Below are positions 368 through 12,969 of a stretch of 17,144 nucleotides of DNA, piece after piece (the first letter of the stretch is position 1; each line of letters opens with the position of its first letter). The stretch comes from Coriobacteriales bacterium. GTDB taxonomy: Bacteria; Actinomycetota; Coriobacteriia; Coriobacteriales; QAMH01. The translations under genes were made by a program, and so were the position numbers. Under the pieces are notes generated by a model that had not been told where the DNA came from, made no database searches, and worked only from the letters and a program-made list of their open reading frames with translations. The DNA lies in contig JAKSUU010000001.1 of NCBI GenBank assembly GCA_024408695.1, forward strand, positions 1 to 17,144. Direction: 5' to 3'.

Positions 368-1075
368 ATGAGAATTAAAAATGAACGTCTCAAAATTAAC
401 GCAACCGCGCATCCTATGTCTAAGATGCTTCCAATAATGATAAGCGAAATGGCTCCAGCCACAACTATTGCAACGGTGCTTTTTATTAAATTTATATGTG
501 GAATGATCTTTGGATTTTTAATCAATTTTATTCTTGAAAAATCCGGGCGATTGCATACAGGTCTTGCAAGCAAACATACTCATGATGGACATGGAGACTA
601 TGACATTGATCAACTTTGTGACGAAGCTAATTGCAAATGCGACGACCACTGTGAGCACGAAAGCGGAAAACATGCTTGGGGACATATTGCTCTTTGCGCA
701 CTTAAACACAGTTTACAAGTCATCGTTTTTGTCTTGGTTATAAGCTTGTGTCTAAATTTACTAATTGAAACTGGTGCAATAGAAAATCTCTTTGCAAGCG
801 ATGCTAGTTATGGTCCATATTTAACAACTTTTATCACAGCAATTTTAGGGCTTATTCCAAATTGTGGAATTTCTGTTGGTATAACTGAATTATATCTTGA
901 AGGTTACCTTTGCGGTGGTGCTTTAATTAGCGGGCTTTTGGTAAATGCTGGCTGCGGGTTATTAGTTTTAATCAGAACAAACAAAGATTGGCGCGAAAAT
1001 CTTCGCATCGCACTTCTGCTTGTTACGATTGGTCTTGTTTGTGGCTGCCTTATCCAGGCAATTGGCATCCTTTAA
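368..1075 (+). CDS. Heavy-metal exporter-like membrane protein (ArsP_2 / 10TM exporter family), short form
   Basis: This 235-residue membrane protein resembles the C-terminal half of the putative 10-TM heavy-metal exporter family (ArsP_2, formerly DUF2899). The best signature is the segment around residues 161-196: GLIPNC, then TELYLEG, then the LVNAGCGLLVL stretch. Membrane spans are visible near 32-56, 112-133, 148-171, 183-203 and 213-235. Between the first and second lies a soluble loop, about 63-106, packed with possible metal ligands (H63, H70, H72, H75, C84, C89, C91, H94, C95, H97, H102, H106). Full members are usually well over 300 residues with a related N-terminal half, which is missing here. 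The start is set by AAAAGGAG at 351-358, 9 bp before ATG. It may be a genuine half-size transporter that dimerises, or a 5'-truncated gene with a new start. The substrate is not shown. Confidence 0.7.
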   Translation: MRIKNERLKINATAHPMSKMLPIMISEMAPATTIATVLFIKFICGMIFGFLINFILEKSGRLHTGLASKHTHDGHGDYDIDQLCDEANCKCDDHCEHESGKHAWGHIALCALKHSLQVIVFVLVISLCLNLLIETGAIENLFASDASYGPYLTTFITAILGLIPNCGISVGITELYLEGYLCGGALISGLLVNAGCGLLVLIRTNKDWRENLRIALLLVTIGLVCGCLIQAIGIL

Positions 1076-1082
1076 TACAATC

Positions 1083-1115
1083 TGGTGCAAAACATCCCTG
1101 ATATTTTTTGTACCA
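1083..1115. repeat. 33-bp hairpin repeat, copy 1
   Basis: This is the first of three copies in the window (also 1148-1180 and 11925-11957). The ends are TGGTGCAAAA and TTTTGTACCA, a near-perfect 10-bp inverted repeat around CATCCCTGATATT. It lies 7 bp after a stop codon. The flank ATTCGCAGGTCA at 1116-1127 recurs next to the third copy, so the mobile or copied unit is longer than the hairpin there. It has no T-tract after the stem, so it is not a standard terminator. Confidence 0.7.
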
Positions 1116-1147
1116 ATTCGCAGGTCACAGCACTGAAATATATTTTC

Positions 1148-1180
1148 TGGTACAAAACATCACTGATATTTTTTGTACCA
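1148..1180. repeat. 33-bp hairpin repeat, copy 2
   Basis: The ends TGGTACAAAA (1148-1157) and TTTTGTACCA (1171-1180) are a perfect 10-bp inverted repeat around a 13-nt centre. It differs from copy 1 at only two positions and starts 65 bp after it. The flank seen beside copies 1 and 3 is not present here. Confidence 0.7.
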
Positions 1181-1213
1181 ATCAGAAATTCAAGTAGTAT
1201 TTTTCAACAAACC

Positions 1214-1259
1214 AATTTTGTTCAAATTTACCGTTAGCCAGAAATTTTTGAACAAAATT
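1214..1259. promoter_or_regulatory. 13-bp inverted repeat overlapping the -35 box: candidate operator
   Basis: The arms AATTTTGTTCAAA (1214-1226) and TTTGAACAAAATT (1247-1259) are perfectly complementary around 20 nt. The right arm contains the whole -35 box of the next promoter. A dimeric regulator bound here would block RNA polymerase. The product of the next gene has an N-terminal winged helix and is an obvious candidate for autoregulation, but that link is inference. Confidence 0.5.
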
Positions 1260-1276
1260 TATTCAAACCTTATAAT
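1248..1276 (+). promoter_or_regulatory. Strong promoter for the choline/ethanolamine operon
   Basis: TTGAAC at 1248-1253 and a perfect TATAAT at 1271-1276 are separated by 17 bp. The predicted start near 1283 gives a leader of about 38 nt before ATG at 1321, with AGGAG at 1312-1316 as ribosome site. Confidence 0.75.
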
Positions 1277-1320
1277 ATACTATAGTTTTTTAACAATGAT
1301 TTCGTACACATAGGAGAATA

Positions 1321-3198
1321 ATGCTTACCAACGAAGAATTTGACATTCTTAATTATTTTTACAAATTAGAAAAGTCAAAAAAAGAAGCATCTGCAAAACC
1401 TGCAAAAAAGAATGCTAAGCCTAAGTTATATGATGACAGGCACAAAGAACAACTCCCTCAATTCCCAGACAAAATCACTCAAAGAATAATTGCGAGTCAA
1501 AGTGGATTGTCCTTAGGCACAACAAACAAAGTCCTTAAAACCTTAAAATCCAAAAAATATATAAAGGATAGCGCAATTACCCCTGCTGGTATGCGTGTTT
1601 TAAAACCCTATAAAGTGGATAACGCAATTATTATGGCGGCTGGACTTTCCTCTAGATTCGCTCCAATCTCTTACGAAAAACCAAAGGGCATTTTAAAGGT
1701 CAAAGATGAAATTTTAATCGAACGCCAGATAAAACAACTAAAAGCTGCGGGAATCGATGAAATCATTTTAGTCGTTGGTTATATGCGTGAAGAATTTTTC
1801 TACCTTGCGGAAAAACTTGATGTAAAGATTCTCATTAACGATGACTACGCAAATAGAAACAATTTTTATTCTTTGTATCTAGCAAAAAATTATCTAAAAA
1901 ATTCATATGTATGTTCTTCTGATGACTATTTTACTCAAAATCCCTTTGAAGAATATATCTATACTTCATATTATGCTGCAGAATACAGCGCCAAAAAAAC
2001 TCCAGAATATTGCCTTGTTACAAAAGGAAAACACGATGAAATTGTAAATGTTTTAATTGGTGGCAGCAAGGCCTGGTACATGACTGGACATACTTATTGG
2101 AACAAAGAATTTAGCAAGGCATTTATTAATTTATTAAAAACTATAGTTGACGACCCTAACACCGCTGGAAAACTTTGGGAAGATATTTATCGTGAAAACA
2201 TCAAAAAATTACCCGCAATGGTCCTTCGAAAATATAACAATGGAGAAATCTTCGAATTTGATTCATTGGATGAACTAAGGAGCTTCGATCCAATCTTTAT
2301 TCAAAATGTAGACAGCAGCATTTTAAACAACATATGCAAAGTCCTAAAATGCAATAAAGAAGAAATTATAAATATTGTGCCTATTAAACAAGGCCTTACG
2401 AATCTTTCTTTTATGTTCACTGTCAAAAATAAAAAATATGTTTATAGGCACCCAGGCGCAGGAACAGATGAAATTATTAACCGTGCCTCCGAAACTTTCT
2501 CGCAAAAAGTTGCTCTTGAGCTTGGGCTAGACAAAACCTTTATTTATGAAGACAAAAATCGCGGTTGGAAGATTTCTTATTTTATCGATAATTGCACACC
2601 TTTTGATTACCACAATGCAAAACATGTTAAAACAGCTATGAAAATGGGTAAAAAGTTGCACACCTGTGGCAAAAAATCAAAATTTAAATTTGATGTTTAC
2701 GAAAACACGCTCGAAATCATCGAAAAACTCGGGGCAGCCCAGCGCACGTCGTTTAAAGACTTCGAAGTTATCTATAGCAAAATTCAAAAAATTGCTAAAT
2801 TTTTAAAAGCAGAAAAATCCCCTTTATGTTTATGTCATAACGACTTTTATGACCCAAATTTCTTAGTTAGTAAAAAGGGTATGTTTTTAATTGACTGGGA
2901 ATATAGTGGCATGAGTGATTACGCAAGCGATCTTGGAACATTTATATGTTGCAGTGATTATACCTTTGAACAAGCGCTCGAAGTATTAAATATTTATTTT
3001 GAAGGAAAGATGAACGAAGAGCAATTAATACATTGCGTAAGCTATGTCGCACTTAGTGCATTTTATTGGTTTGTATGGGCCTTATATAAGGACATGTGCA
3101 ACGACCCCGTAGGAGAATGGCTTTATTTATGGTATAAACACGCTAAAAACTTTAGCGAAAAAGCATTGGAATTAATTGAAAGTAAAGGAGACAAATAA
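1321..3198 (+). CDS. Winged-helix / phosphocholine cytidylyltransferase / choline kinase fusion
   Basis: This 625-residue protein joins three modules. Residues 1-98 hold a Lys/Ala-rich linker and a MarR-like winged helix (about 52-98). Residues 101-335 are a LicC-type nucleotidyltransferase: AIIMAAGLSSRF at 102-113, EKPKG at 119-123, and a probable metal-binding D201-D202. Residues 350-620 are a choline/ethanolamine kinase of the LicA/APH fold, with the catalytic-loop motif HNDFYDPNF beginning at H506 (D508 as base) and IDWEYSG with D525 and E527. The expected chemistry is phosphorylation of choline or ethanolamine with ATP, then condensation with CTP to give the CDP-amino alcohol used to decorate teichoic acid, lipopolysaccharide or glycolipid. 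Its stop overlaps the permease start by one base (TAATG), indicating translational coupling. The catalytic modules are clear; which amino alcohol is used is not. Confidence 0.88.
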   Translation: MLTNEEFDILNYFYKLEKSKKEASAKPAKKNAKPKLYDDRHKEQLPQFPDKITQRIIASQSGLSLGTTNKVLKTLKSKKYIKDSAITPAGMRVLKPYKVDNAIIMAAGLSSRFAPISYEKPKGILKVKDEILIERQIKQLKAAGIDEIILVVGYMREEFFYLAEKLDVKILINDDYANRNNFYSLYLAKNYLKNSYVCSSDDYFTQNPFEEYIYTSYYAAEYSAKKTPEYCLVTKGKHDEIVNVLIGGSKAWYMTGHTYWNKEFSKAFINLLKTIVDDPNTAGKLWEDIYRENIKKLPAMVLRKYNNGEIFEFDSLDELRSFDPIFIQNVDSSILNNICKVLKCNKEEIINIVPIKQGLTNLSFMFTVKNKKYVYRHPGAGTDEIINRASETFSQKVALELGLDKTFIYEDKNRGWKISYFIDNCTPFDYHNAKHVKTAMKMGKKLHTCGKKSKFKFDVYENTLEIIEKLGAAQRTSFKDFEVIYSKIQKIAKFLKAEKSPLCLCHNDFYDPNFLVSKKGMFLIDWEYSGMSDYASDLGTFICCSDYTFEQALEVLNIYFEGKMNEEQLIHCVSYVALSAFYWFVWALYKDMCNDPVGEWLYLWYKHAKNFSEKALELIESKGDK

Positions 3199-4643
3199 TG
3201 GGAGAATGGGCAGCGACATTTTTTAGTAATCCGGGCAACTATGTAGTTGCACTTATTATGATCTGCGCCATCATTGGCTGTTTGGTTTCTGTTTTTAAAC
3301 CAGAACACGAACTTGGTCAAGAGTTTGTTGCAGGTATCGATGCTATTGGTCCTATCTTTTTGCCTGTAGCTGGTATTATGGCTTCTCAGCCTTACTTAGC
3401 AGCATTTATTAGTGGAGTTTTTGGACCACTATTTAACACAATTGGTGCAGACCCGGCAATGGCAGCGACAACCTTTATAGCCGTTGACATGGGCGGTTAT
3501 CCGCTTGCTGCCGAACTTGCAGCAACAAAAGAAAGCTGGATTATGGCTATGATGACAGGTTATATGGCAGGTGCTACTATTGTATTTACCATTCCTGTTG
3601 CTTTAAAGATGCTTGAAGTTCGCGACAGAAAATACTTGGCACTCGGTGTTATGAGTGGTCTTTTGGCTATTCCTATTGGCGTATTTGTATCGAGTGCAAT
3701 TATTGCTTTTTCAAATCCAATGATTCGTGAGGTGGTTGCTACCAATGGCGAAGCAACCTATCAGCTCGCGCTAAGTTGGGCGCAAATTGGTATTAACCTT
3801 GTTCCTTTAATTATTATCTGCGTTCTTTTAGCACTTGGTCTTAAGTTTATTCCTAATGGCATGATTAAAGGCTTTAATGTATTTGGTCGCGTTCTTGAGA
3901 GCGCATTAAAGATTGTTGTTGTAATTGTTATTATTGATTACTTTACTGGTATTTTTACAACCTTGCTTGGAGAAGCCTTTGAATTCCAGCCCATTATCGC
4001 AGATGAAGTTGACATATTTAGAGCTTTGGAAACCGCAGGTGCTATTGGTATTATGCTTTGTGGTGCCTTCCCAATGGTTTGGATGATTAAGAAGTTCTTA
4101 GCTAAGCCACTTGAAAAACTTGGTAAGCTTGTCCATCTTTCTTCAGATGCTACTGCTGGCCTTTTGGCTGCAAGTGCTAATGTTTTAGCAGCTCTTGCTA
4201 TGGTTAAAGATATGAGAGCACGCGATAAAGTAATTGTTATGGCATTTGGTGTTTGCTGTGCGTTCTTATTTGGTGACCATTTGTCGTTTACTGCAAACTT
4301 CCAACCTTCACTTATTCCAGCTGTTATGCTTGGTAAAATTGCTGGTGGTATTTTCTGTATTATCTTTGCCTACTTATTAGCAATTAAAAACGCCGAAAAA
4401 CTCGAAGCTGAGGATGCAGCTAAAGGCATTAGCTCAATTAGCACTCCTAAAGAAGATGAACAACTTATTGTAAATAACACGAACGACGAAGTTGCGCTAG
4501 ACGCTCCACGCTTTATGGCAGATACAAAAGCTCTAGCTCAATCTACCCTTGAATATGCAAAAATGATTGACGCGAGTGAAGAAGATTTAGCAAAACTTGC
4601 CCAAAGTGGTTACATGGCCTGTTCAAATATTGCAAAAAAATAA
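3198..4643 (+). CDS. EutH-family ethanolamine (or choline) permease
   Basis: This 481-residue membrane protein matches EutH, the ethanolamine permease family. Conserved stretches include DMGGYPLAAELA at 97-108, a segment around 123-163 matching the EutH core (ATIVFTIPVAL, RKYLALGV, IPIG), and FGDHLSFTA near 358-366. About ten hydrophobic spans lie between residues 14 and 396. Residues about 400-481 form a soluble acidic tail with no membrane span, longer than I expect for EutH. The gene is coupled by one base to the kinase/cytidylyltransferase fusion and no other eut genes are present. It probably feeds the fusion enzyme, taking the place the LicB-type choline permease has in classical lic loci, and not an ethanolamine catabolism compartment. 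The family is well supported; the substrate is inferred. Confidence 0.85.
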   Translation: MGEWAATFFSNPGNYVVALIMICAIIGCLVSVFKPEHELGQEFVAGIDAIGPIFLPVAGIMASQPYLAAFISGVFGPLFNTIGADPAMAATTFIAVDMGGYPLAAELAATKESWIMAMMTGYMAGATIVFTIPVALKMLEVRDRKYLALGVMSGLLAIPIGVFVSSAIIAFSNPMIREVVATNGEATYQLALSWAQIGINLVPLIIICVLLALGLKFIPNGMIKGFNVFGRVLESALKIVVVIVIIDYFTGIFTTLLGEAFEFQPIIADEVDIFRALETAGAIGIMLCGAFPMVWMIKKFLAKPLEKLGKLVHLSSDATAGLLAASANVLAALAMVKDMRARDKVIVMAFGVCCAFLFGDHLSFTANFQPSLIPAVMLGKIAGGIFCIIFAYLLAIKNAEKLEAEDAAKGISSISTPKEDEQLIVNNTNDEVALDAPRFMADTKALAQSTLEYAKMIDASEEDLAKLAQSGYMACSNIAKK

Positions 4644-4766: not shown

Positions 4767-7700
4767 TTAATTGTCGTTATCCTTGGCATCTGCTATTTTT
4801 TCGGTAACAGAGGCTTCAATATAATCTATTAGTTTTTTTGAAAAACTAAAGCAAGTATAGAAATATTCATCTGTAAACTTATCAAGCTGAATTGCTTTAT
4901 TTGATTTCTTAATTTTGTCGTTAATATCTTTAAGCTTTGGCTTTACACTAGCTGGTTTTTCTAAAAAGAGAGTATAGTCTGGAACAAGCTCAAATCCTCG
5001 AACAACAAGCTTTTTTTGTCTAAGCGACAAAACAAATCGTATGGTTTTTGTCATAAAATATGATTTGATTAATGCACAGTGTGTACTTTCCTTTGAATTT
5101 TTATATTTTTCTGGAGGAAGAACATACACAACATTGCCAACCGCAATTCTATTCTCATTACAAATAACAGGGTTATTATTAATAACATTGTTTCTACCGG
5201 CCAAAAGAGAATGACCTTTTTTATCTAACATTACTTTTCTGGAATTTGATATTTCCTCGTAATAATTGGCCTTTTTATTCAGATACTTTTCTTCAATATA
5301 ATACCAATGAGATTTTGTTCCTTTTCCACTTCCTTTATTTGCCCAAATTTCACGAGCTTTATTTAACCCATCTTTGGAATCCTTTAACTTGTCTGTGTCC
5401 TTAGATTTATCAAAACCAAATTCTTGACCATTTAAACTTCCAATATTTCCAGCTACTCTTTGCAAAATACTGTTGGTCGCCTTGCTACGATTGTCTAAAA
5501 GCTCATTAAAATAATCGTCCATTGATACATTTTTAATAAATTTTTTAACAAACTTTTTATATACTTCAGCTTCATACTCATTCGCAACAAAAACATCGTC
5601 TTTTTTATATGTCCCAGAGTAACTCTTAATTCCGTCCCTGCCTTTAAAATAAGAATTATAAGATACATCTCCTTCAAAGTCTTTTTCAAAATATGAAATT
5701 ACAACACCACCATCAATAGCATCATTTTTTTCAAAAATTAACTTTGAATCACCATAGTATTCAAAATTTTTAAGCTTGTTATCTAAAATGTTGTCCCTTT
5801 TATTGCATGCTTGTTTAGTAGGAACTACCCAATCTGCAGGGTGTATAAAACAACATGAATGTTCAGCAATTCCCCAACCAATTTTTAGAAATTGTGGCCA
5901 TATGGGAAAATTCTTTGTACCACCTTTTTGTATCTGATAAGGTGGATTACCAACAACTGCAGCAAATTTCACTTTTTTATCCTCTCCGTATGCATCTAAT
6001 TTTATTTGTGAATAATCATCGTTGCTCAATAAGGCTTTTATAACATTTTCACAACCATTTTTTTTGTCCTCATCACACTTTTTAGCAATGTCATAAGAAG
6101 TAAAGTTCTTAGCAATGTGTGCACAATTTAAACCACACTCTTCGTATGCTTTAAGGGTAAACTCAAAACCTACACCTGAAGATGGTATTGTATAAAAGGC
6201 ATCGGCATAATTAGGAAAATCTTTATAAGATTTCACGCCATGTGTTTTGCACCATTTAGTGTTAGAATCACACCAATCCTTAATAAAATCCCTATAAACA
6301 TATGCAAATTCGCCAATTTTTCCAGAAATATCTAAGATCTTTTCGCCGTTTACAAGAGCATCAATAATTTTTCTTTTAATTTTAGGTTCTTCTTGAACTT
6401 GTTTGTGTTCATAAAAAGCAAGTTTAAATAATTTTTTGCATGAATCTACAGGTGTAATGACTTCTGCATCACTAATTTTTTTAAGCTTGTCAAATACAAG
6501 ATAGGATTTATTAGCAATATCGAGACTTGTCTCTGATCTACCTTCTTTTATATTATTAATATCGTTTAAAGAGTGCTCAAAAATCAAACGAAAGTTTATC
6601 TCTTGCGGTGTTTGTTCTTTGCGATCTATAGTTAGAAATGGTTTTAAAAGTGAAGGCTTTATACCAAGGTTTTTGCAAATTCTTAAATTGTCATCATAGC
6701 GTTCATTAGAATCGGCATCGCAAGCTTTAATTAGATTATCAAAGCTTTCTACCTTAGACGGTGAAAGATATGCAAACAATAAAAGGCGCATATAGAAAGC
6801 CAAAAACAAATCTTCTTTTGATGGTTGTTTCTTTTTTTTGTCTGAACTGTCTTCTTCTAAATGATCTTCTTTATCACCTACAGATGAGCTAGAGTCTTGC
6901 TGTTCATTTTCTTGGTCATAATCTTCATCTTCTTCAGCGTATTGTTCATCCATAGAAAAATTGAAACCTTTTTTGGAATCTAAAGGGGACATACACTCTA
7001 TCATATTTCTTATTTGCCCGTTCTCATAGAATCCTTCAAAAACTGGGATTTCTTTAGCCGTTTGAATTAAACCTTGTTCCTTTCGGAAATCCTCAACATG
7101 TTTCGAAGCATCTGCATAGCACTCAATTTTTTCAGCCCTTTTTTCGCCAATTACAATAGTGTTAACATCAGAATAATATTGATTCAAGATTTCGTTTGGT
7201 GATTTTTTACTTTTATCCACCGATAAAGAGTGGCCAGAAAATTGATTGTCTGCTCTTATAACATCAAGATGAAACATTCGATTAGGCTTTAAATCAATCA
7301 AGATTGTCTGGGGTTTTAAGCACTCCTTGTGCCCCTTTGGCCCACTAGCCAAACTACTTAAGCTGGGATTTGTTATAATGTAAGAACTTTGAAGTCTAAA
7401 GATTGCCTGGTCGTATTCCTCAATAGAGCTACAATCCTTTGCAAAAATCATAGTATCCCACTGTTCTATAGTCACTCCTGTTAATAACTTTTGCGAAGTA
7501 AAAGACAATGTTTTTTCATGATTTAAACTACACTTGATTAATTCATGTTTATATTTAGTTATACTTTTTGTTTTATCATGAGAAGTGATAAGAAATTTTT
7601 GATAGTTGTTAAGGTTAGGAAGCTCTTCAATATGGTCTTCTATTAATTTGTAAAGTGCGTCACAAGATGATACACGTGGAAGAACAAAAACAATATGATT

Positions 7701-9467
7701 TCCTATTTTATCGTTTTTAATTGGGCCTATATTTAAAAATTCAAAGAAGGCGCCGTTCGTTTTGCTGCCGTCCAAAATCTTTAGAAACTCCAAAATAGCT
7801 TTTTCGTAAACAAACTTTTTATGTAGTTCGTTTTCTTTATCTTTTTCAACTGAGCAAGGTTTAAATAAATCTGTAAGTGAGTTTACATTTTGGTCTAAAT
7901 AACCGGCTTTTTTTAAAGGGCTAATTGGATCATAAGCAAAACGAATCATTTCTGGAAAACCAAAATATGGGTTTTCTTCTTCTGCAGGGTTATTGCCTTT
8001 TTTTTCTTCTAAACAATACTTTTTTTGAGTTTCAAAAAGCTGACTTTGATCAAAATAGCAAATAATGGTATCTTTATTAAATTCTTCGCTCATTAAAATA
8101 CGATATGGGGTTCCCGATAAATGAAGTTGGCATCTACTTTTAAGTTTAGAATTTTCAAGTGTTTCTAATGCCTTACCAAGCTCAACTGCATCCTCTTTTG
8201 TTGCTTTTTTATCAAAAAGATGCTCTTCTGCAGAGTCTTTAAGCTTAGCTCCATATTCCTTCGCGCGCGCACCAAAATGAGTTTCATCAACAATCAATAG
8301 GTCAATTTTATTGTTATTAAGATAGTAGAATAGTTCTTTGTGCTTGTCCTTAGCTTGATCGCCTTCAAGATCTTGCAGAGTTAAAAATAATGCAACCTTA
8401 TATTTGCCTTCAATGTCAATATCATCCTTATTATTCTTTTTTGCATCCTTTATTAAATCTTTAAATTTTTTTTGTTCCAAGGGCGTTTTTCCAAGAATTT
8501 CTTTAAATTCTCCGGTATTAAGGGTGCTGGCATCCATAAATTTATAGGACGCAAAATCCCAATGACCTTCTACTGCTTCTTTCCATGCATCTTTAACATC
8601 AGTTTTGGCAGAAACTATTACCACAAGCCTAGAATCTTTAATTGCTTCGGCACACCACAATGATGTATGCGTTTTTCCAAATCTCATAACAGCAAACATC
8701 AAAAGTTTTTTATAGCCTTTATCAAATGCTCCTTTAAATTTTTCAATTACCGTTTTTTGCTCGTCGCGCGGATTAAATTCTTCTGATCTTTTATAGTGCT
8801 TTTCTACTTGAGTGTTGACAAAAGGAAGGTAAAAATTGACATCTGAATCTTCGCTACCAACCTTAAGACTTTTTATTTTTTTTAAGGCAGTTTTTACATC
8901 CTCTAATTTGCAACCTTTAAAAAATTCGTCAGTATAAACAACGCCCTTTTTTTCAAGACGTTTTATGTGGCCATCTTTATTTATGTCATTTTCATCGACT
9001 AATTTATCGTGAACCGGATAATCTAAAAAATACACATAATTATACTTACTATACTTATCCGGATAATTTTGACAACGAACATTAAATTCTTCAATCTGCT
9101 TCTTGTATTTTTCTTTACTTTCAAGACCTTCTAATAAGCTATTGATTTTTTCTATAGACACATCTACTGTTGCATCCTCAAAATATATATTGTCAACATT
9201 AATTTTTTCATCTTTATTTTTCCACTCTTGCACACGCACCTTAGGGTGTCTTGAGGTAAAACCAACCTTTAAAGCATTTCCATCTTTTACGGTCGGGGTA
9301 TTAAATACATATATAGATGGTTTTATATACCCGTGAACGACTTCCAATACACTTTGCGCATCATATTCATAATTATCATCTAAGGTTTTGTTTTCTTGAA
9401 AAGCTAGGCTATGTACTTTGTTGCTTTCAGTTAATTTATTGTTTTTTGAAATCTTTTCTTTTTTCAT
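4767..9467 (-). CDS. Single-chain restriction-modification enzyme: GIY-YIG-like nuclease, SF2 helicase, N6-adenine methyltransferase
   Basis: This 1566-residue protein looks like a Type ISP-style enzyme in size and order. Residues about 50-130 resemble the T5orf172/GIY-YIG nuclease fold (SIYVF at 51-55, ALKVGFTSR at 65-73, R78). Residues about 225-700 are a superfamily 2 helicase: MRFGKT at 261-266 (motif I), DETH at 394-397 (II), SGTP at 451-454 (III), LLTGVTIEQW at 661-670 (V) and QAIFR at 687-691 (VI). An acidic, Ser/Lys-rich linker covers about 838-885. Residues about 1000-1290 are a gamma-class N6-adenine methyltransferase with ITPVDSC (1004-1010), motif I KILDISGKIGEF (1043-1054) and catalytic NPPY at 1174-1177. 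The rest, to 1566, is the likely target-recognition region. The start overlaps the preceding gene's stop (ATGA). Expected role: sequence-specific methylation plus ATP-driven translocation and cleavage of unmodified DNA. The helicase and methyltransferase are clear; the nuclease call is weaker. Confidence 0.82.
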   Translation of the reverse strand: MKKEKISKNNKLTESNKVHSLAFQENKTLDDNYEYDAQSVLEVVHGYIKPSIYVFNTPTVKDGNALKVGFTSRHPKVRVQEWKNKDEKINVDNIYFEDATVDVSIEKINSLLEGLESKEKYKKQIEEFNVRCQNYPDKYSKYNYVYFLDYPVHDKLVDENDINKDGHIKRLEKKGVVYTDEFFKGCKLEDVKTALKKIKSLKVGSEDSDVNFYLPFVNTQVEKHYKRSEEFNPRDEQKTVIEKFKGAFDKGYKKLLMFAVMRFGKTHTSLWCAEAIKDSRLVVIVSAKTDVKDAWKEAVEGHWDFASYKFMDASTLNTGEFKEILGKTPLEQKKFKDLIKDAKKNNKDDIDIEGKYKVALFLTLQDLEGDQAKDKHKELFYYLNNNKIDLLIVDETHFGARAKEYGAKLKDSAEEHLFDKKATKEDAVELGKALETLENSKLKSRCQLHLSGTPYRILMSEEFNKDTIICYFDQSQLFETQKKYCLEEKKGNNPAEEENPYFGFPEMIRFAYDPISPLKKAGYLDQNVNSLTDLFKPCSVEKDKENELHKKFVYEKAILEFLKILDGSKTNGAFFEFLNIGPIKNDKIGNHIVFVLPRVSSCDALYKLIEDHIEELPNLNNYQKFLITSHDKTKSITKYKHELIKCSLNHEKTLSFTSQKLLTGVTIEQWDTMIFAKDCSSIEEYDQAIFRLQSSYIITNPSLSSLASGPKGHKECLKPQTILIDLKPNRMFHLDVIRADNQFSGHSLSVDKSKKSPNEILNQYYSDVNTIVIGEKRAEKIECYADASKHVEDFRKEQGLIQTAKEIPVFEGFYENGQIRNMIECMSPLDSKKGFNFSMDEQYAEEDEDYDQENEQQDSSSSVGDKEDHLEEDSSDKKKKQPSKEDLFLAFYMRLLLFAYLSPSKVESFDNLIKACDADSNERYDDNLRICKNLGIKPSLLKPFLTIDRKEQTPQEINFRLIFEHSLNDINNIKEGRSETSLDIANKSYLVFDKLKKISDAEVITPVDSCKKLFKLAFYEHKQVQEEPKIKRKIIDALVNGEKILDISGKIGEFAYVYRDFIKDWCDSNTKWCKTHGVKSYKDFPNYADAFYTIPSSGVGFEFTLKAYEECGLNCAHIAKNFTSYDIAKKCDEDKKNGCENVIKALLSNDDYSQIKLDAYGEDKKVKFAAVVGNPPYQIQKGGTKNFPIWPQFLKIGWGIAEHSCCFIHPADWVVPTKQACNKRDNILDNKLKNFEYYGDSKLIFEKNDAIDGGVVISYFEKDFEGDVSYNSYFKGRDGIKSYSGTYKKDDVFVANEYEAEVYKKFVKKFIKNVSMDDYFNELLDNRSKATNSILQRVAGNIGSLNGQEFGFDKSKDTDKLKDSKDGLNKAREIWANKGSGKGTKSHWYYIEEKYLNKKANYYEEISNSRKVMLDKKGHSLLAGRNNVINNNPVICNENRIAVGNVVYVLPPEKYKNSKESTHCALIKSYFMTKTIRFVLSLRQKKLVVRGFELVPDYTLFLEKPASVKPKLKDINDKIKKSNKAIQLDKFTDEYFYTCFSFSKKLIDYIEASVTEKIADAKDNDN

Positions 9468-10456
9468 AAAACCTCATTTATATTTGTTGAATTTGTATAC
9501 AAACTTAAAAATGTAATTGTATCATTTTTTTCCCAATCCATAATCTGGCAATATACACCATTGTGAAGCGAAGGAATGTGTTTAGCGCAACCCACACATA
9601 CTTCTTTACTTGTTTTTTCTCCAAATATTGTTTGGACTTTTTTTGTGTGTTTACAGCTAAAAGGAACAACAAAACGCAAACCATCCATTTGCCAAAGGTT
9701 CCATGAAATAATCGTGGCGATTTCTATACACTTATCTAAACTAGGCTGAACTTGAAATCTATCCATATAATAATCTAGGAAAGTTATAAACATGTTTTCT
9801 CTTGCAAGCAATAAATTATCGCCTTGAATTTCGTAAGCATAACATGCTTTGTATGCTTCGAGAGCATATTTAAACCACAAATTGGAAGAACAGTTTTCGT
9901 TAATAATACGCAACTTTCTATCTAATATACCAATTCTATTTTTTAATTCAATGGCTTTTCCGCTAAGAGCATCATAGCGAGAAACTAAATATGGAGCCTC
10001 GCCACAACATACTTCTAGCCGAAGGTCTTTTACATAATTTTGCCAACTTTTTCCTTTGTAAAAAATGACCGCATTATTATTGGTCTGCCAAGATTTTTCA
10101 CATTCTTTATTAAACGGACCGCTTGAATCTATCCAGTTTTGATCAAGCTTATTATTTTGCACATTGCAAAGCCAAGCAGGAGTAAAAACCTCTCCTTTAG
10201 TTACCATTCTTTTTTTTTGAATATGCTTTGGCTTTAAATTACGTGGTTGAATTAATTTGCGGTGTTCAGTGATTGCTTTTAGGGTCATTGGGCTTTCTGG
10301 TAAATATGAAGAAGACAAATCAAGATAGTTATCACTTCCCCATAAAATATTTTCGTTTGTGGTTCTATCTAAAAGTAAAATTTCTAAAACACCTGGAAAT
10401 TCATCGATAACTTTGTATTCTAATAAATCTATATGGTTCATTATGTCCATAGTCAA
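9464..10456 (-). CDS. Methyltransferase-like partner subunit (restriction 'subunit M' family)
   Basis: This protein of about 330 residues resembles proteins usually named restriction endonuclease subunit M. Visible motifs: KGEVFTPAWLCN at 87-98, like methyltransferase motif X; LEVCCGEAPYLVSRYD at 147-162, like motif I of an AdoMet site; IQGDNLLLAREN at 210-221, like the acidic motif after it; and WNLWQMDGL at 252-260. No NPPY or DPPY catalytic motif is visible, so it may bind AdoMet or DNA without catalysing methylation. C268, H270, C287 and C290 could hold a zinc ion. Its stop overlaps the large gene's start by 4 bp, so the two are co-translated and probably form one complex. The longest reading starts at TTG (10456); ATG at 10441, giving MNHIDLLEY, is at least as likely. 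No clear ribosome site precedes either. Confidence 0.72.
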   Translation of the reverse strand: MTMDIMNHIDLLEYKVIDEFPGVLEILLLDRTTNENILWGSDNYLDLSSSYLPESPMTLKAITEHRKLIQPRNLKPKHIQKKRMVTKGEVFTPAWLCNVQNNKLDQNWIDSSGPFNKECEKSWQTNNNAVIFYKGKSWQNYVKDLRLEVCCGEAPYLVSRYDALSGKAIELKNRIGILDRKLRIINENCSSNLWFKYALEAYKACYAYEIQGDNLLLARENMFITFLDYYMDRFQVQPSLDKCIEIATIISWNLWQMDGLRFVVPFSCKHTKKVQTIFGEKTSKEVCVGCAKHIPSLHNGVYCQIMDWEKNDTITFLSLYTNSTNINEVL

Positions 10457-10724: not shown

Positions 10725-11513
10725 ATGGATAAAACAGAGCTAAAAAAACAAGTTGTTGAACTTCGTAACCAAATTTTAGAAAGGGTTCAAGAATACGATT
10801 TTCGAGATACTCACGATCGCATGATTTTAAATGCTGAATACCAAATAAAAATTGGTGTTTACGAAGTAGAGCTACTAAAAGCGCAACTAAACGCCATGCG
10901 ACAAAAGAAAAAATACCAATTAATACAAGCAGCTATAAACCGTGAAGAAAAAATTGATGTAAACGGCATTGACCAGAGTTTAGACAATGAGCTCGACATA
11001 TGGATCAAAAAAGTAAAAGATGGTATTAACCTTCATAAAGCAGCCGTAGCATGTCGCAGCGATTTAACTGCAGCAAAACCAGCAGATGTAAAAGAATGTA
11101 AACGCTTGTATAGAATAATTGCAAAACGCCTTCACCCAGATATTTGTGCTATTTTAGGGGAAGACGCACGTGAATATTTTGAACAAGCTAAAAATGCATA
11201 CGCCATGCTAAACTTAGAAATTTTACAATCAATAGAAATTGCTACACGCGATTTAGAAAAACCAGAAAATCTTGATGAAATGGATGAAAATGCACTTTGT
11301 CTCGAAGTTGAACTTGCAAGTGCCCAACTTAATATTCAACGCGAGAAATTAAAAAAACTTAATGCTCAAGAGCCATTTTGTTATGAAGACATAATGAAAG
11401 ATCCTGCTAAACTTAATAGAAAAACGGCCCCTATTAAAGAAGAAACCGCCAAACAGCAAGAAATCTACGAAACTTATTTTAAAAAAACACAAGACTTATT
11501 AAAGGATAAATAA
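10725..11513 (+). CDS. J-domain protein with coiled-coil flanks
   Basis: This 262-residue soluble protein has a DnaJ-like domain at about 122-165. The sequence ECKRLYRIIAKRLHPD ends in the diagnostic HPD at 137-139 and is followed by the helix REYFEQAKNAYAML, as in helices II to IV of a J domain. Unlike DnaJ, the domain is central: residues 1-110 are charged and helical, probably coiled coil, and residues 185-262 are again helical and charged. There is no Gly/Phe-rich or zinc-finger region. It would be expected to stimulate a DnaK/Hsp70 ATPase and to bring it to a particular partner; the partner is unknown. Its stop overlaps the HIRAN gene start by one base (TAATG), so the two products are probably made together. 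The J-domain call is firm; the role is not. Confidence 0.8.
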   Translation: MDKTELKKQVVELRNQILERVQEYDFRDTHDRMILNAEYQIKIGVYEVELLKAQLNAMRQKKKYQLIQAAINREEKIDVNGIDQSLDNELDIWIKKVKDGINLHKAAVACRSDLTAAKPADVKECKRLYRIIAKRLHPDICAILGEDAREYFEQAKNAYAMLNLEILQSIEIATRDLEKPENLDEMDENALCLEVELASAQLNIQREKLKKLNAQEPFCYEDIMKDPAKLNRKTAPIKEETAKQQEIYETYFKKTQDLLKDK

Positions 11514-11917
11514 TGGATAATGAATTGATAAAAACCGCTGGACAAGAAATTTCGCCAAGCGTTGCTGCATCACTCAATTTAGGGGTGGAAGCAAAACCAT
11601 TCTCAAATGAAATTGTTTTAGTAGAACACACGCGTGTTGTTGGCACAAAACATATTGAAAATATTGAAGATCTTATATTAAATTTAGCGCCAGGTGACAA
11701 ATTAAAATTAATTCGCGACACTAAAAATCTTTACAACAAATATAGCATTAAAATCACAAATCAAGACAGTGTAAAACTTGGGTTTGTATCGTGTAATAAA
11801 AATGAAATGCTTGCAAGTATGCTTGATGGCGGAAAAGAAATTTTTGCGCGAATACTCTCAATCAGCAAAATTGACGATTGGAACAAAATTGACATCGAGG
11901 TGATCTTGAACGACTAA
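11513..11917 (+). CDS. HIRAN-domain protein
   Basis: This small protein (134 residues) is mostly one HIRAN-type domain, about residues 26-130. Supporting features are the opening strand and VVGTKH near 43-48, the central LAPGDKLKLIRDTKNLYNKY with the 'N.Y' feature typical of HIRAN, then a strand and KLGFVSCNKNEMLASMLDGG, matching the 'lGylp....la.lld.G' part of the family. HIRAN domains in helicases such as HLTF bind 3' DNA ends, and stand-alone bacterial copies are often seen near DNA repair or mobile functions. It is coupled to the J-domain gene by a TAATG overlap, implying the two act together. The residues before 26 are unassigned. No catalytic activity is evident. Confidence 0.78.
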   Translation: MDNELIKTAGQEISPSVAASLNLGVEAKPFSNEIVLVEHTRVVGTKHIENIEDLILNLAPGDKLKLIRDTKNLYNKYSIKITNQDSVKLGFVSCNKNEMLASMLDGGKEIFARILSISKIDDWNKIDIEVILND

Positions 11918-11924
11918 ATAAAAT

Positions 11925-11957
11925 TGGTACAAATAATACCTGATATATTTTGTACCA
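11925..11957. repeat. 33-bp hairpin repeat, copy 3
   Basis: TGGTACAAAT and ATTTTGTACCA end regions form the same hairpin as copies 1 and 2, here around AATACCTGATAT. It begins 7 bp after the HIRAN stop codon. The flank ATTTGCAGGTCA (11958-11969) matches the flank of copy 1 at 11 of 12 bases, although the two lie almost 11 kb apart. Confidence 0.7.
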
Positions 11958-11996
11958 ATTTGCAGGTCAAGGGCGAATAATAAGACCCCATAAAAT

Positions 11997-12001
11997 AGGA
12001 G
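11997..12001 (+). promoter_or_regulatory. Ribosome binding site deciding the Sel1 gene start
   Basis: AGGAG lies 5 bp before ATG at 12007. The reading frame is open upstream to a TTG at 11950, but that TTG is inside the hairpin repeat and has no ribosome site, so 12007 is chosen as start. Confidence 0.8.
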
Positions 12002-12006
12002 TAAAA

Positions 12007-12969
12007 ATGAAAAATTCTCAAGTATTTAAATACAGCGGAAAAATTATTAAAACACCAGATTTTTTAGTGCCATGGATTCCAGAAATAAAATTTATAGACC
12101 CAAAATTTGGTCTTCCTTTGTACTTAAATGGCCAAAAAATTGAAATGACTCAATACAACTCATCACAAGATGAATATGGTCAAGATGGTGCACGCACTGG
12201 TGGACAATTTTATACAGAAGCCATGCGTCACACAGATGAAAGTGAGCACGAACTTCGACTAAGCTGTTTTCAGGCAGCAGAAATTTTTTATCTGCAAGGT
12301 GCTTATTTTGGTACTAACTGGTGCTTTGAGGGGCTTGGATACATTTATAGCTACAATAGATGTGAAAGTCGCAATTTAATTCGCACAATCGATTATCTTA
12401 ATTGTATGTACAACAATTGGAAAGCTGGCAATTTAATGGAACATCTTTTACCATACGAGGCAAAGGCGCAATACATATATGATCAATTTAAGGCTGGTAA
12501 TATCTGTGTTGAACTAGCCGAAATCATGCAAGATGCTCCTAATCATTTTATAGATGTTGATCCTGAGAAAATAAAAGAAGATACAAATAAATGGGCATTT
12601 GCAGCTTATGAGTTTGCTGCTGGTTTAGGATACCCAGAAAGTTGCTATAAACTTGGCGACATGTATAAAAATGGTCGCGGTTGCGAACGCGACTACGACA
12701 AAGCTTTTCAACTTTATAAAAAGTCTTATGAAATTAGCAAATCGTATGAAGAGGTCCTTTGGGGAAGTGCAGCATTTAGGCTGGCTATGGCGTATGAAAA
12801 CGGCCAAGGATGCAAACAAAATTTTGCAAAAGCACTAGAATATTACGAAATTGCAAGCACAGGCCTAGAGATTGCAGTTGATTCGGGAGAATGGTTTTAT
12901 AAAAAAGTCCTTCGTGACGCACAAGAAGGCGTGTTACGTTGCAAACAAGAACTCGCTGGCAACTACTAA
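12007..12969 (+). CDS. Sel1-like repeat protein
   Basis: This soluble protein of 320 residues has at least two Sel1-type (TPR-like) helical repeats in its C-terminal half. One is at about 197-241 and contains GYPESCYKLGDMYKNGRG and the following DYDKAFQLYKKSYE; the second, at about 248-284, contains AAFRLAMAYENGQGCKQN and FAKALEYYEIAS. The LGxMYxxGxG pattern is typical. The first 190 residues are aromatic- and Cys-containing and probably include degenerate repeats (around 75-110), but I do not recognise a domain. No signal peptide or membrane segment is visible, so it should be cytoplasmic. Sel1 proteins act as scaffolds for protein contacts. It follows the J-domain and HIRAN genes after an 89-bp gap that holds a hairpin repeat and probably shares their promoter. 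Confidence 0.75.
   Translation: MKNSQVFKYSGKIIKTPDFLVPWIPEIKFIDPKFGLPLYLNGQKIEMTQYNSSQDEYGQDGARTGGQFYTEAMRHTDESEHELRLSCFQAAEIFYLQGAYFGTNWCFEGLGYIYSYNRCESRNLIRTIDYLNCMYNNWKAGNLMEHLLPYEAKAQYIYDQFKAGNICVELAEIMQDAPNHFIDVDPEKIKEDTNKWAFAAYEFAAGLGYPESCYKLGDMYKNGRGCERDYDKAFQLYKKSYEISKSYEEVLWGSAAFRLAMAYENGQGCKQNFAKALEYYEIASTGLEIAVDSGEWFYKKVLRDAQEGVLRCKQELAGNY

Follow-up and report, generated by a model that had tools for sequence, protein, structure and literature searches.

A restriction-modification gene pair in which an adenine methyltransferase is probably split just before motif IV

The 17,144-nucleotide stretch at the start of contig JAKSUU010000001.1 from a Coriobacteriales bacterium (hereafter the window) carries two overlapping genes, which encode a large protein (P0001) and a small protein (P0002, hereafter S). 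We propose that the pair is probably an ATP-dependent, anti-phage restriction-modification system whose adenine methyltransferase is split just before motif IV. The half that binds S-adenosylmethionine (SAM) would reside in S. The half for catalysis and target recognition would be the part of the large protein that runs from NPPY to the end (M'). The large protein also contains a nuclease-motor part (R) and, ahead of M', a second SAM-half (X'). In the proposed mechanism, S would supply motifs X, I, II and III with beta-strands 1-3 and would dock in trans on M', which would contribute NPPY, the remaining fold and target recognition. The complex, for which S would be required, would methylate N6-adenine at a target set by M'. 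The GIY-YIG-like nuclease and the superfamily 2 (SF2) motor of the large protein would cut unmethylated DNA, and X' would serve in coupling or docking on the restriction side. This reading draws on the computed domain make-up, pairing, motif conservation, natural fusions, a phage pair, a swap boundary and the predicted fold of a fusion.

9464..10456, minus strand: small subunit S, 330 residues from a TTG start; PADLOC MTase_II, 3.6e-104, and motif alignments.
4767..9467, minus strand: large subunit, 1566 residues; GIY-YIG-like nuclease, SF2 helicase, X', catalytic and target-recognition half; PADLOC REase_MTase_IIG, 3.7e-146.
9464..9467, minus strand: ATGA overlap of the S stop codon and the large-gene start, 4 bp shared.
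5958..6530, minus strand: X' module, residues ~980-1170; motif X' EVITP, motif I' LDISGKIGEF (with Lys), motif II' TIPSSG without the acid.
4770..5948, minus strand: M' module, NPPY (1174-1177) to the C-terminus; putative catalytic half and target-recognition region, the block exchanged in relatives.

A sequence-only reading of the window had described a 1566-residue chain preceded by a coupled 330-residue gene. Both open reading frames (ORFs) are present exactly as described, on the minus strand and with an ATGA overlap. The overlap would couple translation of S and the large gene. The TTG start of S is uncertain, with alternative ATG codons at residues 3 and 6 (10450 or 10441). In PADLOC, P0001 matches REase_MTase_IIG (PDLC03626, 3.7e-146, residues 135-1483) and P0002 matches MTase_II (PDLC03390, residues 8-321). 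With matches this strong, the similarity is not due to chance. Since PADLOC holds one model per protein, both gene families were already catalogued. An NCBIfam scan matched neither protein, a Pfam scan of P0002 returned no family, and searching solved structures by sequence with each window protein alone gave nothing useful.

Judged by its sequence, S seems to be the N-terminal, SAM-binding half of a gamma-class adenine methyltransferase, with the following motifs.

10178..10195, minus strand: motif X, GEVFTP (residues 88-93); E and P in 92/92 rows.
9986..10018, minus strand: motif I, LEVCCGEAPYL (147-157); counterpart of FLEPACGSGNFL in short relatives.
9815..9835, minus strand: motif II, YEIQGDN (208-214); E or D in 92/92 S rows.
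9677..9700, minus strand: motif III, NLWQMDGL (253-260); counterpart of NLVHGDAL in short relatives.

Motif names and roles are those generally used for gamma-class methyltransferases, in which the acidic residue of motif II is expected to hold the SAM ribose. Residues conserved across the 92 S rows include all four SAM-site motifs. Motifs X and I and the absence of NPPY (motif IV) from P0002 had been noticed in the sequence-only reading and were confirmed; motifs II and III were found besides. A set of 41 short S relatives made the assignment clearer. They carry GEVFTP (X), FLEPACGSGNFL (I), YGIELL.DN or YGIELLADN (II) and NLVHGDAL (III), with no NPPY after them. Their profile aligns with that of the window family (hhalign probability 99.0, E 4e-18, 151 columns) and pairs these motifs with LEITCGEAPYL (I), YGFEWQGDN (II) and NLWQMDGL (III). 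Because the short S proteins show textbook motifs, this alignment indicates that S is the whole N-terminal SAM-binding half, ending before motif IV. The motif II acid is kept in 92/92 S and 41/41 short S rows and in 1/141 X' rows. Clustered at 90% identity, these deduplicated rows fall into 80, 39 and 115 clusters, respectively.

The label MTase_II and its match of 3.6e-104 would fit S being an independent Type II methyltransferase that accompanies a Type IIG enzyme. We hold this to be very improbable, because S lacks motif IV and natural fusions join S to an NPPY part with its target-recognition domain (TRD). The block WNLWQMDG was considered as a disguised motif IV and rejected, since it aligns to motif III. 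On the same alignment of WNLWQMDGL, S was rejected as a complete Type II methyltransferase.

Among genome contigs, 357 relatives of the small protein were found, and the best 80 were examined as genome loci with module profiles for S, X', M' and R. A partner module lies beside S or is fused to it in 79 of these best 80; at the remaining locus, L005, the contig ends within the small gene. Partner and S share a strand in 78 loci, and L032 has a divergent partner. Of 77 measurable S-partner gaps, 72 are of 20 bp or less or are overlaps. The median is 5 bp and the largest are 868, 1031 and 1317 bp. The arrangement of the window, with R, X' and M' together on a single ORF next to S, is found in 62/80 loci. 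X' and M' share one ORF without R in 7/80, and X' stands on the R ORF without M' in 5/80. Among these five, contig ends truncate L028 and L035, and L011 is possibly a disrupted R-X'-M'. X' was detected in 74/80 loci; the six without it (L005, L043, L048, L054, L069, L074) all end within about 40 bp of a contig end. The sequence-only reading would have been refuted by finding the two genes mostly apart, which is not the case in these genome loci; in viruses the small gene is apart more often (17 contigs, see below). On a Bifidobacterium longum plasmid (L102, 8038-10367), S and M' are separated by an IS256-family element, and M' as annotated is without NPPY. On an Enterococcus faecium conjugative plasmid (L105), the pair is followed by a DUF262 protein (11146-12390, plus strand).

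Among 396 genomes of the same phylum, 5 match the small-protein model and 17 the large-protein model. Eleven of the 12 large-only genomes were examined (G298, E 6.6e-4, was left out), and each has a short S of 204-280 residues directly upstream. First detection of these short S proteins was weak (whole-protein E 1e-8 to 5e-3) and was later backed by the profile comparison. Of the 15 phylum loci, 5 carry X' on the R protein and 10 carry it on the M' protein. The small gene is sporadic: it occurs in 2 of 20 relatives, own genome included, which points to an accessory locus. A synteny check in relatives found no empty site.

S and M' are also found as single proteins. Natural S-M' fusions with the order X-I-II-III-NPPY occur in L012, L074, L090, L111, L124, L125 and Fusobacterium phage FNU4, L012 and L074 being the cases among the genome loci. 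Short S is fused to M' in L173 and L183. Tenacibaculum phage PTm1 encodes a 335-residue S and an annotated M' of 344 residues beginning MKFDIIVGNPPYQQ. Upstream of this M', the frame is open for 58 codons (L104, 4393-4566, plus strand) and reads as the end of X' after motif II' (KIAYEFTRK...), with motifs X' and I' missing. The PTm1 M' gene therefore appears to derive from an ancestor of the X'-M' type, from which motifs X' and I' were lost. In the whole records of PTm1, FNU4, L173 and L183, the large-protein model finds the M' end only (from model positions 939, 983, 1009 and 1008) and no R part at E 0.001; the L173 and L183 contigs may be fragments.

The fusion L012 (669 residues) was modelled with AlphaFold2 from a 43-row alignment, A4, that includes P0002. 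The model has a pLDDT of 89.5 and a pTM of 0.86. Its S half places strands at 145-148 (motif I), 205-209 (motif II) and 254-256 (motif III). In its M' half, a strand at 328-333 leads into NPPY (334-337) and is followed by strands at 363-371, 395-401 and 417-423. A Foldseek search against solved structures ranked CamA chains first (top 7.2e-12, 705 columns, TM-scores 0.40/0.48), and from its length this alignment should cover both halves. Further matches include BrxX, M.BseCI, MmeI, DrdV, BpuSI, LlaBIII and LlaGI, among others. The motif order X-I-II-III-IV and the gamma-class fold are seen in the natural fusions and the L012 model, and apply to the window pair by homology only. Searches of solved structures by sequence with the S profile, the M' profile and the fusion profile gave nothing useful.

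The place of the cut coincides with a site of block exchange. All four modules are complete in 65 loci, among which there are 188 pairs whose R parts exceed 80% identity. Within these pairs, S averages 0.84 identity, X' 0.87 and M' 0.42, and M' falls below 0.5 in 172/188. A scan of the large protein by bins (195 pairs among 36 of 55 proteins, L055 numbering) shows mean identities of 0.80-0.94 through the NPPY bin, which itself has 0.82 (residues 986-1000). Past NPPY, identity is 0.40 at 1001-1020, 0.31-0.49 up to 1260 and 0.57 at 1261-1306. The compared pairs are non-independent and come mainly from Prevotella and other Bacteroidales (uncounted). The exchange joint, as read from these alignments, thus appears to lie at motif IV. 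Since the part from NPPY to the end is 42% identical while S stays at 84%, target specificity is expected in M', and its variability places a putative target-recognition region there. Mirror-tree correlations are modest (S-M' 0.35, S-R 0.54, S-X' 0.57) and are no proof of S-M' contact. In L116 (8003-14996) and L032 (1868-5024), extra whole or partial M' copies are present, one of them inverted in each locus, and inverted repeats of 33-37 bp span the NPPY-coding sequence. In L116, an ORF nearby looks like a tyrosine recombinase by eye. This arrangement suggests switching of the methyltransferase half by DNA inversion in the two loci.

The sequence-only reading had taken the second subunit for a DNA recogniser or a sensor of modification state. 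The constant pairing would suit such a role. Separate specificity subunits also exist, as in BcgI, and a part of PMC3874165 describes them for Type I systems. Against it, S remains about 84% identical when M' is exchanged, the conserved blocks of S include SAM-site motifs, and no Pfam family was matched. S as a specificity subunit was rejected on this contrast (0.84 versus 0.42), and we give recognition or sensing by S hardly any weight.

The remainder of the large protein is consistent with a restriction machine, with two further regions.

8880..9329, minus strand: GIY-YIG/T5orf172-like nuclease region, residues ~47-196; IYVF 52-55, KVGFT 67-71, DEFF 180-183.
7389..8777, minus strand: SF2 helicase-like motor, ~231-693; MRFGKT 261-266, DETH 394-397, SGTP 451-454, AIFRLQ 688-693.

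Pfam matches of P0001 above cut-off are the ResIII helicase (3.3e-8) and the Eco57I methylase (3.7e-8); with them, the helicase motifs MRFGKT, DETH and SGTP and the NPPY first seen by reading alone are borne out. The GIY-YIG-like N-terminus had been proposed in the same way. It has no direct Pfam match to the GIY-YIG family, nor to the Mrr family, at E 1. In some split relatives, the nuclease-helicase is a separate protein. The window family (18 rows) and eight split relatives have N-terminal profiles that align (hhalign probability 98.2, E 2.8e-14) across IYAF, KVGxT, VH and EFF, and two of the eight match Pfam T5orf172 (L026, 2.4e-10; L094, 1.8e-7). T5orf172-type GIY-YIG nucleases are marked by a two-part Tyr/Gly core, an Arg and a Glu, and P0001 shows IYVF, KVGFT and DEFF. 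On the strength of the profile alignment, the N-terminal region is taken as a putative GIY-YIG-like nuclease.

The second SAM-half, X', resembles short S over motifs X and I (hhalign probability 97.4, 57 columns). Its motifs I' and II' are altered. At the motif I position, X' has KSG where CamA and LlaGI have GCG or GTG, and the Lys is present in 135/141 rows. The motif II acid is lost in 140/141 rows, with Thr or Ser two residues later in 137/141; the window X' reads TIPSSGVG at this place. With these motifs so changed, X' looks retained for a role that is not ordinary SAM binding. The four loci that lack a nuclease-motor (PTm1, FNU4, L173, L183) have either no X' or a truncated one, which hints at a role on the restriction side. 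Most likely, X' would serve that side by coupling or docking and not methyl transfer. A strict tie of X' to the nuclease-motor protein was considered and rejected, since X' is often on the M' chain without R, and L157 and L191 have X'-M' and no R (the L157 contig ends 2.1 kb downstream).

The main rival explanation concerns this module. X'-M' could be a complete methyltransferase in cis, with S as a SAM-binding activator or regulator; METTL14 and METTL3 offer a comparison for an activating partner. X'-M' is colinear with complete enzymes, and its profile (A2) matches the solved structures of CamA (8.2e-9) and LlaGI (4.2e-8). X' is present in 74/80 genome loci, and the other six stop at a contig end or close to one. 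It is on the M' chain, without R, in 7/80 genome and 10/15 phylum loci, and X'-M' occurs without detected S in L191 and L193. Conversely, X' has lost the motif II acid and carries the Lys in motif I. FNU4, L173 and L183 have S-M' or short S-M' fusions and no separate X' in the stretch examined, and PTm1 retains the X' end only. The phage protein L232 contains NPPY; inspection by eye showed neither motif X nor motif I ahead of it, and S lies ~8 kb away. X' belongs to the R protein, with M' on a different one, in 5/80 genome and 5/15 phylum loci. We regard the cis enzyme as a rather unlikely alternative, albeit the most serious one.

Several observations weigh against the split methyltransferase and bear on this choice. 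X' precedes NPPY in cis and X'-M' matches complete methyltransferases, so that the large protein alone may form a folded methyltransferase. X' is on one protein with M', without R, in 7/80 genome, 10/15 phylum and 35/117 viral loci, which fits X'-M' being the methyltransferase. A Glu lies three residues past the lost acid in 36/141 X' rows, and LlaGI has ANEI near the same place, so that in those groups of X' the acid may be shifted. In S itself, motif I reads CGEAP, with the second Gly missing. The PTm1 S-M' pair could itself be decaying. The fold evidence comes from the relative L012, whose alignment row is 47% identical to P0002, and not from the window proteins; its CamA TM-scores are moderate (0.38-0.43 by query length), and coverage of both halves is judged from alignment length. 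Finally, S and M' each occur apart: S without M' in the examined flank of 17 viral contigs (L109, L112, L113, L128, L129, L131-L142), and M' without detected S in L149, L153, L191 and L193.

The 117 viral loci, which include repeats of one contig, comprise 18 R-X'-M', 11 R-X', 35 X'-M', one X' alone and 52 with none of these. L193 is R-X'-M' without detected S, and both L157 and L191 are X'-M' without R. Some of the solo S proteins are near-copies of one another. Fourteen of the 17 solo-S contigs were scanned whole. M' was found elsewhere in four (the contigs of L132, L136, L137 and L140) and not in the other 10, contigs that may be fragments. In three of the four, which exceed 230 kb, M' ends an R-containing protein of 1795-1927 residues more than 60 kb from S, and for two of these proteins the M' match is weak (best E 3.8e-10 and 9e-6). 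None of the three distant proteins is matched by the X' profile, though KIGE-type motifs are seen in them by eye. In the fourth contig, M' is a 502-residue protein ~8 kb from S, without motif X or I visible by eye. Solo S proteins could be anti-restriction factors or remnants. A further possibility, which we consider unlikely, is that M' alternates between partners: with S it would form a methyltransferase, and with X', which would be unable to bind SAM normally, a target-reader for the nuclease-motor. The choice of partner would then decide between modification and restriction. Solo phage S would be anti-restriction, pushing host enzymes into methylating phage DNA.

Beside the solo S of L113, a 227-residue protein (846-1529, plus strand) shows by eye a DPPC motif and a later motif-I-like block; it is perhaps a permuted methyltransferase. 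In distant viral relatives (L200-L222), a SAM-half-like protein of 123-343 residues is paired, by weak matches, with an NPPY protein, mostly of 280-420 residues and of about 1140-1170 in L209, L210, L213 and L214; in L205, two NPPY proteins stand in tandem. From these weak matches, the split design may be wider.

Type ISP enzymes (LlaGI, LlaBIII) have the same order of nuclease, SF2 motor, gamma-class methyltransferase and TRD, and a similar size; their ATP-dependent cleavage is long-range and head-to-head. The window pair shares their SF2 motor (ResIII, 3.3e-8), a gamma-class methyltransferase (A2 against LlaGI, 4.2e-8, and NPPY) and a putative C-terminal TRD. Natural splitting of a methyltransferase is known from M.AquI, a C5 enzyme that makes one fold from two genes; unlike M.AquI, which belongs to another class with different chemistry, the enzyme proposed here would methylate adenine and is joined to a restriction machine. 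PMC4666363 and PMC4872093 describe Type ISP enzymes as one polypeptide with a Mrr-family nuclease. Here, by contrast, the nuclease is GIY-YIG-like, a second, constant gene is present and there are two SAM-halves per NPPY half. Because two defining features, the single polypeptide and the N-terminal Mrr-family nuclease, are missing, we do not call the pair a Type ISP member. The sequence-only view of a two-component system related to Type ISP yet distinct from it holds in this respect. Its "separate branch" overstated the novelty of the genes, both of which have PADLOC models (as two enzymes). We read the pair as one that would work like a Type ISP enzyme whose SAM-half is detachable.

CamA, M.BseCI, BrxX/PglX and MmeI, all Foldseek matches of the S-M' fusion model, are solved adenine methyltransferases with a single chain through motifs I-IV; for CamA, this is also visible in the profile alignment with X'-M'. 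To our knowledge, none has a nuclease-motor partner gene of this kind. Type IIG enzymes (Eco57I, MmeI) are likened by the Eco57I Pfam domain in M', and a part of PMC3874165 describes them as gamma-class methyltransferases with an N-terminal cleavage domain. Type IIG enzymes cleave at a fixed distance from their site. The large protein has nuclease-like and NPPY parts in one chain, but its own SAM-half X' is altered and S is separate. It differs from Type IIG by its SF2 motor and by the second gene. PADLOC covers the large protein with PDLC03626, S with PDLC03390 and the NPPY-to-end part of relatives with MTase_II PDLC03375. Its labels denote separate enzymes and give no hint that PDLC03390 and PDLC03375 could be halves of one methyltransferase. 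In the portions of the literature covered, which include PMC11758030, PMC12898733, PMC10333322, PMC5644110, PMC5903667 and PMC4872093, each in part, and leave REBASE and most subscription journals and preprints outside, no description was found of a gamma-class methyltransferase split between motifs III and IV; the split may be known to REBASE or to literature beyond these. PMC3874165 contains neither "split" nor "two halves", and a part of PMC7824862 mentions circularly permuted phage adenine methylases.

The surroundings of the pair in the window are as follows. Divergent to it, 10725-11917 (plus strand) encodes a DnaJ-like protein (Pfam DnaJ 2e-5, under the cut-off). A small protein with a HIRAN domain (5.5e-9) is also encoded there, and it is similar to the C-terminal part of PADLOC PDC-M03B (2.8e-8). 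The other flank (1321-4643, plus strand) is ordinary, with a nucleotidyltransferase/choline-kinase-like fusion and then an EutH-like protein.

Two catalogued "methyltransferase" families thus appear to be halves of one enzyme. If they are, any inventory of restriction-modification systems or methylome assignment that counts the small gene as a methyltransferase in its own right would be wrong. A cut at the site of specificity exchange suggests a reason for building the enzyme in pieces: the SAM-binding half, nuclease and motor would stay constant while catalysis and recognition are swapped or inverted as one block. The pair would also give a natural split adenine methyltransferase for testing, and solo S proteins would be a candidate class of phage counter-measures.

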